This document shows positions 23,856 through 27,490 of a stretch of 64,000 bases of DNA, piece after piece. Positions within the stretch are counted from its first letter, which is position 1. The number at the start of each line of letters is the position of its first letter. The notes under the pieces are model-generated. The model made no database searches and was not told the DNA's origin. It saw nothing but the letters and a program-made list of their open reading frames with translations. The stretch spans positions 186,001 through 250,000 of the forward strand of contig NZ_JAAMOW010000005.1 in assembly GCF_011067135.1 (NCBI RefSeq), in the 5' to 3' direction. The position numbers and the translations under genes were made by a program. Source of the stretch: Solimonas terrae. GTDB lineage: Bacteria; Pseudomonadota; Gammaproteobacteria; Nevskiales; Nevskiaceae.

Positions 23856-23932
23856 GCGCCCGTAGCTCAGCTGGATAGAGCACTTGGCTACGAACTAAGG
23901 GGTCGGAGGTTCGAATCCTTCCGGGCGCACCA
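23856..23932 (+). tRNA. tRNA-Arg(ACG), integration target
   Basis: A 77-nt tRNA with acceptor stem GCGCCCG/CGGGCGC, anticodon loop CTACGAA (ACG) and encoded CCA. It stays intact because the element inserted in the 3' half restores it. The part from 23888 on is repeated at 27111-27158. Confidence 0.97.
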
Positions 23933-23935
23933 TTT
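23888..23935 (+). repeat. attL: 48-bp direct repeat inside tRNA-Arg
   Basis: Identical to 27111-27158, from the anticodon-loop CTACGAA through the CCA and three more bases. The sequences diverge immediately on both sides, which defines the maximal crossover region. Confidence 0.95.
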
Positions 23936-23938
23936 ATA

Positions 23939-25000
23939 TCAGTGAGTTAGACGGCCCTTCGGGGCCGTTTCCTTTTCCAGCGTAGCTAAATCGTAACCGA
24001 TAGCGAGTTCCGACAACCGCGCTTGCTCGGCATACCGTTCGAGATGCTCCATGCTCAAGTGCGCGTAGCGCTGGACCATCTCTGAAGTTCGCCAGCCGCC
24101 GAGTTCCTGAAGCACGTTCATCGGTGTACCGTTCTGTGCGTGCCAGCTCGCCCATGTGTGCCGCAGATCGTGCCAGCGGAAATTTTCAATTCCCGCCCGC
24201 TTGACTGCAGAGCGCCATGCCTTCGTGCTGATTTGCGTAACCGGTTCGCCCTGAAATGTGAACACGAACTCCGGGTGTCGCCCTATCTGTTCCTCGATTA
24301 CCTGCATCGCTTCGGCGTTAAGCGGGACTGAAATAGCCCGCCGTGCCTTGGCTTCTTCCGCGAGTATCCAAGCCCTCCGTCGTTCCCGATCAACCTGCGC
24401 CCACCGCAGCCGCTTGACGTTGCCCTGTCGCAATCCCGTTGCCAACGAGAATCGCGCCATCGCTCGCAAGTGCTCCGGCAGCTCAGTCAGTAACCGCATC
24501 GCCTCCTGTCGCGTCAGGAAGCGCACGCGTCCTTGTGGTTCATTTAGCATCCGAAAGCGCGGCACCTTGTCGAGCCATTCCCACTCATGCGCAGCTCTGC
24601 GAAGGATGGCCCGCAACACCTGAACCCGTCGATTGACGGTTGTGTTCGTAACGCCCTCCCGCAGACCTGTCTGAATGATTCGCTCGACGACATCGCGGTC
24701 GATCTCCGTCAGGTCCATGCCCTCCAGATGCGGCTGCATCCAGCGGAGATGAAACCGGAACGTGACGATCCCCGGTTTGTCGGCGCTTTCTTCCAGATAC
24801 CTCAGCACCGCTTCCTCCCACTTCCGGCGCGGCTTTACGCCGAGCCGGTGTTGCTCCCACACTTCAGCACGTCGCCTGTCGTGGTATTCCCGAGCTTGCC
24901 GCTTGTTGGCAGTCCCAGTGCTTTCCTGCAACGGACAATGTCCTTGGCGTGAGATTTTGACCCACCAGAACGGTGAGTCCTTGCGCTTGTAGAGTGACAT
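23939..25000 (-). CDS. Tyrosine recombinase integrase
   Basis: A 353-residue integrase with an N-terminal arm-binding region (YKRKDSPFWWVKI), a SAM-like core-binding domain at about 60-150 and a catalytic domain. Catalytic residues visible are Arg191 in ATGLRQGN, His277 and Arg280 in HDLRH, and the nucleophile Tyr312 in QRYAHL, following GGW. All are intact, so the enzyme may be active. The gene is adjacent to attL and reads toward the tRNA. Its first 166 bp overlap the HTH gene in another frame. Confidence 0.95.
   Translation of the reverse strand: MSLYKRKDSPFWWVKISRQGHCPLQESTGTANKRQAREYHDRRRAEVWEQHRLGVKPRRKWEEAVLRYLEESADKPGIVTFRFHLRWMQPHLEGMDLTEIDRDVVERIIQTGLREGVTNTTVNRRVQVLRAILRRAAHEWEWLDKVPRFRMLNEPQGRVRFLTRQEAMRLLTELPEHLRAMARFSLATGLRQGNVKRLRWAQVDRERRRAWILAEEAKARRAISVPLNAEAMQVIEEQIGRHPEFVFTFQGEPVTQISTKAWRSAVKRAGIENFRWHDLRHTWASWHAQNGTPMNVLQELGGWRTSEMVQRYAHLSMEHLERYAEQARLSELAIGYDLATLEKETAPKGRLTH
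23951..23968 (+). terminator. Hairpin terminator within the 3' end of int
   Basis: ACGGCCC-ttcg-GGGCCGT, a perfect 7-bp stem with a UUCG tetraloop, is followed by TTCCTTTTCC on the plus strand. It lies 18 bp after the tRNA-Arg 3' end and inside the last codons of the integrase gene. It probably ends tRNA transcription now that the native terminator has been moved to 27172. Confidence 0.65.
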
Positions 25001-25200
25001 TCATGAATCTCCGAGCTGTCACCCTGCAACGCTCGCCGGCTGTAGTGTGCCCGAACGTAGCCGAGCAGATCGTCTGCGACGAACACCCACCGTTTGCCGA
25101 GCTTGGCACCGGGGATGCGCCCCTGACTCGCCCATGACGCAAGCGTCACTGGATGGAGCTTGAGCAGGCTGGCGGCTTCTTGCAGGGTGAGCGTGTTCAC
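24835..25200 (-). CDS. HTH protein, probable excisionase/regulator
   Basis: A 121-residue protein. Residues 1-50 form a MerR-like winged HTH of the excisionase type (LTLQEAASLLKLHPVTLASWASQGRIPGAKLGKRW). The rest is polar and unassigned (CHSTSARTHRSGG region). The start is GTG at 25200 and overlaps the rep stop as GTGA, so the two are coupled. The C-terminal ~55 codons overlap the start of int in another frame. Such small HTH proteins bind att arms or element promoters. Whether the overlapping tail is functional is unknown. Confidence 0.8.
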   Translation of the reverse strand: MNTLTLQEAASLLKLHPVTLASWASQGRIPGAKLGKRWVFVADDLLGYVRAHYSRRALQGDSSEIHECHSTSARTHRSGGSKSHAKDIVRCRKALGLPTSGKLGNTTTGDVLKCGSNTGSA

Positions 25201-26249
25201 GCCGTGTCCCCTGCGCTGCTTTCCCCCCGTGGTAGGGGGAGGTTAGTTAGCCGTCGTGGCGTGCCCGGCCGCATGACTTGTTCAAGCACCGCGAAGGCAT
25301 CGCCGCCTTCGACCTTAGCCATAACCGTCAATGCAGGGCCGTACTGCGTTCGCAGACAGCGGACGAGGTGTTCGTAGCTGACCTCGAAGGACTTGGACAG
25401 GGTCTTGACCTTGTCCTGCCGTTTTGTCAGGAAGCTGAGGCACGGATACGCGCCGGCCAGATAGTCACCCGGCCGCGTCACGACATCGTTGGGGATCAGG
25501 CGGGACTTCCCCCGGAACTCGACCTCAACACGGCACCACGGGCTTTGCGGATCGCCCTGTTCCTTGCCTTTTTCGTAGACACGGCAGAGCTTGCCGTTCT
25601 GACGCTTGCCGACATACAGCGTCTTGCCGTTGTTCGATCCGAGATCGTCGATCAGGCGTGCGGATGGGGGACGACCACCCGTCGTGAACTGACCGTCCTG
25701 CAGCCATGCGAGGGCCGTGATGATGCTGACGGCTTCGGCGTCGAAATCATCGTGTGCAAGATCGACGCGAGTGACGCGTGCGCCGTAGGTTTCGCACCAC
25801 ACGCGAATCGCGTTCCAGTCCTGAATGCGAGCACAGCCGTGGCCGTTCAGCTCAAGGTGTTCTGTGCCCCGTTGCGCATCGCCGCCGTAAGCGAGCAGAC
25901 CGAAACCGCCGAGATCGACACGATGCTTGTAGCCGTTCCATCCGCCCTCGCGATTGAGCCAGGTCGAACGAGGGATAAGGAACATGGAGGCGAGCACATC
26001 GTAAAACTCAGTGGTCGGCGCGCGGAAGGTGCATGCGAACCAATCGACGTGTGCAACGTCGGCTTTGCCCGTGCTGGGTACTTCGATGGGGTCGATAGAG
26101 GTTTTGCCCCGTGTTACTCGACGGGGCTCTAACTCGCGGCTGTACGTGCCGTGCTCATGCTCGCGCGCGGCATGCTCGCCGCGTGCTTCGCTATGCTCAG
26201 CACGCTGCGAGCGTGCCGCTTTCTTGTTGCGATGATGATGTGATGCCAT
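25197..26249 (-). CDS. Replication initiation protein (Rep_trans/RstA-like)
   Basis: A 350-residue protein with a basic, His/Glu-rich N-terminal tail (~50 residues) and then a Rep_trans-type domain. Recognisable blocks are VDWFACTF, GGWNGYKHRVDLGG, LELNGHGCARI, RVDLAHDDFD and TLYVGKRQNGKLCRVYEKGKEQGD, followed by WCRVEVEFRGKSR. These match initiators of CTX-type filamentous phages (RstA) and related rolling-circle elements, which nick an origin and start single-strand synthesis. The start at 26249 has GGAG 9 bp upstream; the frame is open to 26330 but without ribosome-binding sites. It is translationally coupled to the HTH gene. Confidence 0.85.
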   Translation of the reverse strand: MASHHHRNKKAARSQRAEHSEARGEHAAREHEHGTYSRELEPRRVTRGKTSIDPIEVPSTGKADVAHVDWFACTFRAPTTEFYDVLASMFLIPRSTWLNREGGWNGYKHRVDLGGFGLLAYGGDAQRGTEHLELNGHGCARIQDWNAIRVWCETYGARVTRVDLAHDDFDAEAVSIITALAWLQDGQFTTGGRPPSARLIDDLGSNNGKTLYVGKRQNGKLCRVYEKGKEQGDPQSPWCRVEVEFRGKSRLIPNDVVTRPGDYLAGAYPCLSFLTKRQDKVKTLSKSFEVSYEHLVRCLRTQYGPALTVMAKVEGGDAFAVLEQVMRPGTPRRLTNLPLPRGESSAGDTA

Positions 26250-26254
26250 GTCAC

Positions 26255-26323
26255 GTGACTCCGGATGACGCATGGAGTCACGGATAGAAGCCCTGACTCC
26301 AACGCGTAGTTGCGTGGAATCAC
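26255..26323. repeat. Iterated TGACTCC/GGAGTCA motifs upstream of rep
   Basis: GTGACTCC (26255-26262), its inverse GGAGTCAC (26274-26281), TGACTCC (26294-26300) and a one-mismatch inverse TGGAATCAC (26315-26323) alternate in orientation just upstream of the rep start. They may be an operator or Rep-binding iterons. Confidence 0.5.
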
Positions 26324-26539
26324 AAGCCACCGGGGTCTTCGGTTACCTTGCCTGCGCGTGAGGCACCTCGCATTGGCACTTCTCAGCGGCGGCTCGATGG
26401 CCCTTTACGAATCCGCTGGTGCTTCTTCAATGCGCTATTGACCGCGCTACGTTTCAAAGTGGAACAACTTGTGCCTGCGTAGGCTGACAACAGCTATATG
26501 GTGTGTCAAGTCCGCGTTCTCCCCGTGGGTCCACAGCCT

Positions 26540-26604
26540 CGCATCGCTCCACGATGCGACCTGCGCGGCGGTTCGGTTCGGCTTACGCCTCACCGCCGCG
26601 CAGG
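26540..26604. repeat. Twin hairpins, candidate replication origin
   Basis: Hairpin 1 is CGCATCG-ctcca-CGATGCG (26540-26558). Hairpin 2 is CCTGCGCGGCGGT (26560-26572) with its perfect complement ACCGCCGCGCAGG (26592-26604) and a 19-nt loop. Adjacent stable hairpins upstream of a Rep_trans gene suggest a rolling-circle origin or a single-strand origin. This is inference from position and structure. Confidence 0.5.
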
Positions 26605-26633
26605 CTTCGGGCTATGGACTACGGGGATAACGC

Positions 26634-26993
26634 TCAGTGAGTTTTCCCGTACGCAAACGATCCACTGGTGTTCGGTCCACCCAAGAGTTTGCGCGCCATC
26701 TCAATCGCATGTTCTCGATCGCGGTTTAGCTCTCGAAAGTTTGAGCTGAGCATCGGATGCGACACGCCATTTCGTCCGTGCAAGGCGCCCATTTGAGCGT
26801 AGACGGCTTCCGTCGCGAGCTTGAGCCATAGGAACGTGCCGATGGCCTCAGGGTCGCGGCCCGTCATTTTGACCAGAGCGGCGTTAAAGCCATCCCACCA
26901 ACCTTCAAGCTCCGACATCACCGCGTCCAGTTCATCGGCCTCTGCCTCGAACTGAGCGCGGGTTGTCTCGTCCATCCGTTCAAGTTCATTCAT
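26634..26993 (-). CDS. Unknown protein of the mobile element
   Basis: A 119-residue, acidic N-terminus, mostly helical-looking protein (MNELERMDETTRAQFEAEAD ... LEGWWDGFNAALVKMTGRDP). I do not recognise it. It has no signal peptide or membrane segment and no Cys. The ATG at 26993 has GAGGAA at good spacing; an in-frame TTG at 26999 is less likely. It is the gene nearest attR and the first of the minus-strand set, a position where regulators or host-interaction proteins are often found. Confidence 0.6.
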   Translation of the reverse strand: MNELERMDETTRAQFEAEADELDAVMSELEGWWDGFNAALVKMTGRDPEAIGTFLWLKLATEAVYAQMGALHGRNGVSHPMLSSNFRELNRDREHAIEMARKLLGGPNTSGSFAYGKTH

Positions 26994-27110
26994 TTGCAAT
27001 TCCTCGCGTAGCCAGAACGTAGCCGACCTCGACTTAAAACCCTTATGTTCGACGGTCTCAGACTGTGTGCGAACGTTGCAGGATGTGGAGTCTTGCAGTT
27101 CTGAAACCGC

Positions 27111-27158
27111 CTACGAACTAAGGGGTCGGAGGTTCGAATCCTTCCGGGCGCACCATTT
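27111..27158 (+). repeat. attR: 48-bp direct repeat of tRNA-Arg 3' half
   Basis: Exact copy of 23888-23935. It is the displaced original 3' half of the tRNA gene, followed by the native terminator. It is not a functional tRNA by itself. Confidence 0.95.
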
Positions 27159-27171
27159 TTTCAAACAGAAA

Positions 27172-27193
27172 GCCCCGCATCGCGGGGTTTTTT
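27172..27193 (+). terminator. Original tRNA-Arg terminator
   Basis: CCCCGC-atc-GCGGGG followed by six T, 14 bp after the displaced tRNA 3' end. Confidence 0.85.
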
Positions 27194-27351
27194 GTTTGGT
27201 GCCGAGCTCTGTCCCGGAAGGATTCGAAGCGCCGACAATTGACGGGGTTCGACGATCCGGCTCGCCGGATCGAACGCGTCGGCGTCCCGCAGGGCGAGGC
27301 GCCGAAGGCGTCGAACGATCCTTCCGGGCGCACCATTTTTTCGAACAGCAA

Positions 27352-27373
27352 GCCCCGCATCGCGGGGTTTTTT
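27352..27373 (+). terminator. Second copy of the tRNA terminator hairpin
   Basis: Same CCCCGC-atc-GCGGGG-TTTTTT structure as at 27172, upstream of fbp. Confidence 0.75.
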
Positions 27374-27490
27374 GCTGGGCACCGTGCTCCGTTGTCGTCA
27401 CTCGCTTGTGGCAGGTGAAGCGTCGCTGCCGCTTTGCAAAGCGGGCGCCAGCCGGGACAATAGCGCCCCCGCAGACAGACAGATCCGGCC

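Follow-up and report, generated by a model that had tools for sequence, protein, structure and literature searches.

The DNA analysed here, referred to as the window, is a 64,000-nucleotide stretch of the Solimonas terrae genome (contig NZ_JAAMOW010000005.1, positions 186,001 to 250,000; G000 in a comparison set whose loci and genomes carry L and G numbers). It contains a small element inserted at a tRNA-Arg(ACG) gene identified with ARAGORN (23856..23932, plus strand). The 3′ part of this gene forms the left copy of a perfect 48-nt direct repeat, the attachment (att) core, which runs from the anticodon loop to the tRNA 3′ end (23888..23935, plus strand). The second copy lies at 27111..27158 (plus strand) and the two border an insertion with a spacing of 3,223 bp. 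Its genes, rep, a helix-turn-helix (HTH) gene and int, are all on the minus strand, with int ending at the tRNA and an open reading frame (ORF), ORF4, on the opposite side. A preliminary description of the sequence had reported a 3.2-kb insertion with perfect 48-bp repeats, an intact integrase catalytic set, an HTH/excisionase-like gene, an RstA-like Rep_trans initiator and no structural genes; all five features were recovered. Neither the ORF list nor family searches revealed virion or transfer genes among the element's ORFs, and the searches returned no coupling-protein family and no primase, AlpA, packaging or capsid-hijack family among them.

The int gene (23939..25000, minus strand) encodes a 353-aa tyrosine integrase (PF00589, E = 1.3e-34), 45-66% identical to five relatives and about 50% identical to the integrase of Burkholderia phage AP3. 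Residues R191, K218, H277, R280, W303 and Y312, which we take to be the catalytic set, are invariant across six aligned sequences. The adjacent gene (24835..25200, minus strand) specifies a 121-aa HTH_17/excisionase-like protein (HTH_17/excise, 3.3e-11; TIGR01764, 33.4 bits for a cut-off of 28.8). Its 3′ end overlaps the start of int by 166 nt, and HTH matches of 119-121 aa extending into int were also seen in L017, L018, L022 and L016. This overlap, together with the nick-site hairpin, three-way junction, arm-type repeats and cargo slot presented below, goes beyond the preliminary description. Inspection by eye identified possible Int arm-type sites at the int end (GCGTAGCTAAATCGTAACC, 23980..23998) and at the cargo end (CGTAGCCAGAACGTAGC, 27007..27023). 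Across 23 elements, GCTACG/CGTAGC occurs at 12.7 per kb in the 130 bp of the int end, 7.2 per kb in the 200 bp of the cargo end and 0.62 per kb in mid-element, clustering at both ends in 16 of the 23. End-clustered repeats are expected as arm sites of a tyrosine integrase.

The rep gene (25197..26330, minus strand) codes for a 377-aa Rep_trans replication initiator (PF02486, 3.2e-24; phrog_453, 9e-73), conserved from about residue 60, whose true start is uncertain. Its RxDLAHDDF and YEKG motifs are invariant in six sequences, and family searches bore out its RstA-like character. At E 0.01, the Rep profile had a single relative in the PDB, 4cij ("GST REP"); the MobT relaxase model NF041493 gave Rep only 17.7 bits, for a cut-off of 600. 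A genome collection was scanned with six Rep queries and the best 80 of 94 relatives were considered. Together with loci collected beforehand and viral loci, 178 Rep records were classified from flanks of up to about 7 kb: 36 had a related integrase just downstream on the same strand (hereafter integrase-linked, a rule that does not require the HTH gene), 118 had the filamentous-phage gene pI, 24 had neither and none had both. As L017 is the same as L028, and L022 the same as L032, the integrase-linked records represent 34 distinct loci, 29 of which have a detectable HTH gene.

Near the start of Rep, a PRxVTRG stretch is encoded by a GC-rich inverted repeat with AGTAA in the loop (GCCCCGTCGAGTAACACGGGGC, 26106..26127, minus strand, inside the start of rep), the likely nick-site or double-strand-origin hairpin. 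Hairpin loops of this kind house the origins of Rep_trans proteins and the nic sites of MOBT, where the nic is CT'AA in a GC hairpin loop (PMC9371924); the loop of the element reads AGTAA/TTACT instead. An AGTAA hairpin with a stem of at least 6 bp was found in 27 of 36 integrase-linked records (25 of the 34 distinct loci), 21 of 118 pI-linked records and 9 of the remaining 24. Five other five-letter cores, used as a control, matched 0, 3, 0, 1 and 0 integrase-linked records and 0-5 pI-linked ones, the core with three matches being GTAAA, which overlaps the AGTAA loop. The 22 letters of the hairpin in element L017 recur unchanged in the pI-linked loci L107, L109 and L113. In L054, the hairpin sits outside the Rep domain, 367 nt to its 5′ side, with a separate 86-aa ORF in between; this suggests that the hairpin DNA itself, and not just the Rep coding sequence, is conserved. 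Paired inverted repeats TGACTYC/GRAGTCA at the start of rep (26249-26330), noted by eye also in L017, L018 and L034, are possible Rep operators.

Within 26518..26630 (minus strand) lies a conserved three-way-junction DNA element that we propose as a single-strand origin. When folded as single-stranded DNA (ssDNA), the 26510-26640 segment gave a z value of −9.4; its covariance-model match scored 94 bits, the window sequence being itself part of the model. Read on the rep strand, the architecture consists of an outer stem, an unpaired CGAAG, a variable long hairpin and a short hairpin. The first five sequences folded with z values from −5.8 to −9.4, and L026, L027 and L036 with −6.9 to −8.8; weak folds were obtained for L034 (−3.1, cut without the outer stem) and L039 (−3.3, from a stretch that missed its junction). 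A covariance model, R1, built from nine junction sequences was run on 86 sources and matched 15 distinct elements; all 15 are integrase-linked, and six had not contributed to the model. The junction is always on the rep strand in these elements, at a variable position (between HTH and int in L038 and L039). In an alignment of 23 sequences, fitted to the model, 95.3% of cells pair and two-sided changes occur in 6 of 16 pairs, including all four of helix 3; sliding the alignment by 1-3 columns lowered pairing to 38-54%. In a MAFFT alignment of the nine sequences, paired cells and covariation score exceeded all shuffles. A DnaA-box-like TTATNCACA with at most one mismatch is present in 15 of 24 junctions, compared with 1.3% of letter shuffles. 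Since in the ABC-primosome assay DnaB is loaded onto ssDNA at a hairpin with a DnaA box (PMC6127211), this match points to the junction as a candidate single-strand origin. Beside the junction, a TTGACA (26504..26509, minus strand), found by eye, is a candidate −35 box of a rep promoter; the same hexamer adjoins the junction in L031, L246 and L247, and TTGACG does so in L017 and L029 (by eye).

The junction was then sought more widely. At E 0.001, 6 of the 85 genomes of the host's order had a match, those of G000, G020 and G048 being the elements described here. Two R1 matches, L189 (E 1.8e-4) and L190 (9.1e-4), were judged spurious, their core being mispaired or partly missing in the alignment. 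In G061, which has no Rep match, the junction falls in a stretch cut by the contig end (L191:7500-10627) that by eye includes a toxin-antitoxin-like pair, a cg131-type protein and HTH-like and integrase-like ORFs. At E 1e-5, 5 of 369 genomes of the class were positive, four of them new (G208, G415, G316 and G266); neither rep nor int of the element family was found in these four junction loci. The G208 locus (L201:7430-10640) comprises two tandem 1.6-kb units, each with a junction and two small ORFs, adjoining a dif-like site (one mismatch to the dif sequence). L031 belongs to genome G455, in whose order a scan of 399 genomes gave five with a junction, three of them new: L245 and L246 are int-HTH-rep elements, and in L247 rep is accompanied by an int of 34% identity and no HTH match was obtained. 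Up to E 1, Rfam yielded nothing at the junction, and BLASTN of junctions against plasmids and phages gave partial matches or none. Among 69 other genome loci, a further model, R2, produced a single borderline match, on both strands of L042 (23.5 bits, E 0.011), at a long hairpin. That hairpin (L042:6445-6545, z −12, with GTTACCCACAGG arms) occupies the same slot in an element that has no convincing junction. Two weak R1 matches among 91 viral loci, L127 (18.3 bits) and L171 (14 bits), were both lost with R2; the former has the same coordinates and score as a match in L071, past the pI region of a filamentous prophage. A packaging site shared with tailed phages was considered when a loose junction pattern matched 28 viral contigs, and was dropped upon reading the matches: 25 are near copies of one sequence, three are others and none is junction-like. 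An integron attC reading was set aside by eye, the order of the boxes being the reverse of that in attC sites.

Integrase-linked elements were found mostly in Gamma- and Betaproteobacteria (Lysobacter, Nevskiaceae, Gallionellaceae, Thiobacillaceae and Methylophilaceae, as well as Rhodocyclaceae, Oxalobacteraceae, Comamonadaceae and Moraxellaceae), several hosts being labelled Proteobacteria or Pseudomonadota only. L026 comes from a metagenome-assembled genome labelled Rhizobium, and for L016, which resides on an Azonexus plasmid, no neighbouring tRNA was found. Rep matches were obtained in 6 of the 85 genomes of the host's order: G000, G020, G048 and G012 with the integrase module, G027 with a pI locus and G047 with neither. 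Within the genus of the window, only G000 among 11 genomes has the element. In the Rep tree, 28 of 33 integrase-linked Reps belong to one 53-record clade (SH-aLRT 98), along with 19 pI-linked and 6 other records. A second, smaller integrase-linked lineage stands beside another pI clade, so joining or exchange of the integrase module may have happened on more than one occasion.

An exact repeat of 41-81 bp within the tRNA end was found in 23 of 35 loci examined (22 of them integrase-linked records; L035 is not). Shorter repeats were present in L027 (24 bp), L032 (15 bp) and L041 (27 bp and far off), none was detected in L037, L046, L049, L053, L064 and L088, and the tRNA search in the 35 loci found none for L044, L047 and L056. 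Across the family the target tRNAs are Asn, Thr, Pro, Lys, Leu, Phe, Arg, Val and Met. Elements measure 2,895-6,616 bp (median 3,844; n = 23, with L027 and L246 included, and L035 and L048 left out); the ends of L051 and L055, where the tRNA lies 0.8-1.5 kb past int, are less sure. In three of ten congeners (L264, L265 and L266) the order is lysC-csrA-tRNA-Ser-tRNA-Arg-fbp, with tRNA-Arg uninterrupted and no element. The remaining seven were uninformative, as fbp is present and these tRNAs are missing from the 12 kb before it. These empty sites, along with the 23 loci with tRNA-end repeats, argue that the att-bounded insertion is more than a chance arrangement. In addition, L245 and L246, from two genomes, hold a 3,030-bp element at tRNA-Asn with 99.77% identity. 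In global alignment, their right 3-kb flanks are 84% identical and their left 3-kb flanks 57%, the latter figure being partly due to a different arrangement of the left sides; BLAST blocks wholly outside the element show 90.8, 91.2 and 77.7% identity. Because att repeats, end-clustered arm-type repeats, empty sites and near-identical copies in diverged genomes concur, site-specific integration at tRNA ends and recent movement of the family are supported at the sequence level.

Traces of other events were seen at some tRNAs. Past the right att of the window lie a second copy (89%) of the tRNA 3′ end with its terminator (27318-27392) and an inverted tRNA-end fragment (27213-27236), raising the question of whether the extra copies within 27138-27392 are the scar of a former insertion at the same tRNA. 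An 81-bp repeat in L024 was rejected as a circular joint in favour of a tandem: its left copy is flanked by L024:1-160, which resembles the int end of a second, diverged element at the same tRNA-Asn.

The slot between the far att and rep spans 0.8-3.0 kb in 23 loci. We sampled 28 cargo ORFs, some perhaps spurious, from 19 loci (18 integrase-linked); ten of them and one more were annotated singly and the rest by tally. Defence or toxin-antitoxin genes occur in at least 7 of the 18 integrase-linked loci: GmrSD/NsnA in L025, a BglII endonuclease and methylase in L036, NACHT-SNaCT13 in L042, DUF5343/PDC-M34A in L043, HicB in L051, GmrSD in L052 and an AriA-like ATPase/NsnB in L055. The cargo of L026, L034 and L048 has no family match, and one of the 28 ORFs matches an integrase family. 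L023, which has neither int nor pI, carries a 917-aa protein combining Mrr and STAND. In the window, the slot holds ORF4 (26634..26999, minus strand), a 121-aa orphan with no Pfam, PHROG or PADLOC family, one sub-threshold NCBIfam match and no relative among the loci compared. A family of small proteins (106-131 aa; e.g., L022:4782-5102, L023:4250-4645 and L191:9416-9796) recurs in 12 distinct loci (seven integrase-linked, four with neither gene, and L191), mostly just 5′ of rep; it has no Pfam match and is in no pI locus compared.

The element is not a singleton; it most likely belongs to a family of minimal rolling-circle mobile elements that integrate at tRNA genes. We postulated that it is a rolling-circle hitch-hiker akin to the replication and integration half of a filamentous phage, such a phage being its most likely helper, a reading to which we give roughly even chances. 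Int and the HTH/Xis protein would excise a circle, from which Rep, nicking at the GC hairpin with AGTAA, would peel off single-stranded circles. The three-way junction would start complementary-strand synthesis with host proteins, possibly DnaA, and the single strand would exit the cell through the helper's export machinery; several relatives have anti-phage genes in the slot, which would repay the host for keeping the element. A filamentous phage is the likely helper because Rep and origin are of the filamentous-phage kind and the layout is like that of such a prophage, Rep-HTH-int-tRNA apparently matching its replication and integration half, with a cargo slot in place of the virion genes. 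RS1 relates to the CTX phage in a comparable way. The comparison with inovirus proteins called for in the preliminary description yielded a Rep that groups with filamentous phages in the tree and integrase relatives on pI-bearing contigs in 13 of 80 viral loci (the best 80 of 158 relatives). Two of six viral loci examined closely, L281 and L275, have the order pI, 432-aa ORF, HTH, int, with tRNA-Met next in L281.

Several observations weigh against this interpretation. No pI was found in G000 (PF05707) or in any of the 36 integrase-linked records. The gene is present in 5 of 31 host genomes (those of 31 of the 34 distinct loci, L016, L024 and L053 being out), close to the 10 of 85 for the order, and in 3 of 10 congeners. 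With R2, the junction was found in none of 171 viral loci with one contig in both sets, namely 91 of the Rep family (E 0.1) and 80 of the Int family (E 0.01), so that the search gave no packaging signal common to the element and a phage. It does appear, at about 35 bits, on two G266 contigs with conjugation genes, L205 with TrbI and L206 with a coupling protein, ArdC and ParB. With R1, 19 of the 34 distinct loci have no convincing junction. Further pair types were no better than shuffles (190/500 for 23 sequences, 500/500 for nine), nor were pairs with two-sided changes in the nine-sequence MAFFT alignment (134/500). No HTH was detected in L040, L041, L048, L053 and L088 (5 of 34), and the L053 int and the L088 rep each matched in two pieces. 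Finally, the integrase-linked Reps do not form one clade; nine changes are needed, at least five of them forced by starred branches.

The preliminary description had left the choice between a filamentous-phage satellite and an integrating plasmid that uses a helper. The need for a helper follows fairly from the missing genes, and the evidence on its nature is divided between the phage-like Rep, hairpin and pI-bearing contigs on one side and the distribution of junction and pI on the other. We place a phage helper, at roughly even chances, ahead of conjugation. The element could instead be an integrative mobilisable element (IME) in which Rep doubles as relaxase, the GC hairpin is the nick site of an origin of transfer (oriT), the strand exits by way of a type IV secretion system that a co-resident conjugative element supplies, and the junction primes the second strand in the recipient. 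The junctions of L205 and L206 would suit this scheme, as would the Rep_trans-family relaxases that drive Firmicutes IMEs (PMC7563843 and PMC5704250). A VirB4-type ATPase family is also present in 10 of the 31 hosts, G000 included, which shows opportunity only; the background was counted for pI only, and co-occurrence of pI or VirB4 in the hosts does not separate the helpers. The scheme is rendered rather unlikely by the low MobT score, a loop differing from the CT'AA of MOBT (PMC9371924), the grouping of Rep and hairpin with filamentous phages and the lack of a coupling-protein family among the element's ORFs.

Rep, origin and integrase could also suffice for a circle that has no dedicated helper and spreads by occasional transformation, vesicles or generalised transduction, in line with a pI not clearly commoner in the hosts than in the order and a VirB4 in one third of them. 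We regard such a self-sufficient integrating plasmid as improbable, since three observations speak for an efficient route: part of the family has a conserved ssDNA structure of fixed orientation, diverged genomes hold near-identical copies, and the host groups are many. Decay of a filamentous prophage, with loss of the virion genes, would account for the phage-like Rep and nick hairpin and for the broken appearance of at least two relatives, L053 and L088. This is very improbable given that 34 distinct loci, at different tRNAs and with varied cargo, keep a compact layout in which the int and rep matches are mostly long, given the sharp att ends in 23 of the 35 loci, and given the recent transfer of the 3,030-bp copy.

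More broadly, and tentatively, the filamentous-phage reading may be extended: the elements would form a family of integrating satellites, very small at 2.9-6.6 kb and so far undescribed, that combine a phage-type integrase and excisionase, a filamentous-phage replication module and a mobile three-way junction acting as a DnaA-dependent single-strand origin. The junction would be common to unrelated elements with a single-stranded stage (tRNA elements, the dif-adjacent 1.6-kb tandem, conjugative elements), and interchangeable anti-phage genes would spread with the tRNA elements. The open-access literature searched (titles and beginnings of abstracts; subscription papers and preprints lay outside its scope) holds no description of such a family, in agreement with the earlier view of an uncharacterised system; its novelty is provisional. 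If correct, this proposal would define, in Proteobacteria, a class of self-integrating hitch-hikers of very small size, tie filamentous-phage replication to mobile defence genes and provide a testable candidate single-strand origin common to different elements with an ssDNA stage. The signature of int after rep, AGTAA hairpin and three-way junction is computable and would pick out elements that searches for pI or known relaxases miss.

RS1 integrates through XerCD at dif. Like satellites of the RS1/TLC type, the element is small, has an RstA-like Rep, lacks coat, assembly and other virion genes and would need a helper. It differs from RS1 in having its own tyrosine integrase acting at a tRNA 3′ end rather than relying on dif and XerCD, in its excisionase-like HTH protein and three-way junction, and in the defence cargo of its relatives. 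RS1 is a satellite of the CTX phage (PMC11389934). A satellite of this type would share an origin or packaging signal with its helper phage; for the element, the nick hairpin is common to related phages and the junction was found in none of the 171 viral loci. The pI-bearing filamentous-phage contigs L281 and L275 resemble the element in having an HTH gene just before a 51-53% identical integrase, and differ in carrying pI, the Inoviridae morphogenesis ATPase that the element lacks, and other virion-type ORFs, with no Rep of the element's family found in them. Satellites of the PICI, P4 and PICMI types and tmRNA islands such as I55 likewise have int and a regulator, no autonomous transfer genes and, in some, defence genes; the element is set apart from these in that its ORFs include no family of the primase, AlpA or packaging kind. 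A region of about 18 kb is common to I55 and its kin, and a jumbo phage moves I55 (PMC12595487). The Rep_trans/MobT IMEs of Firmicutes share with the element a tyrosine integrase, a Rep_trans-family protein and cargo (PMC5704250 and PMC7563843). They are Gram-positive, the element misses their MobT model and the nick loops differ; their sites include the oriT of integrative and conjugative elements or ribosomal protein genes, whereas the element resides at a tRNA.

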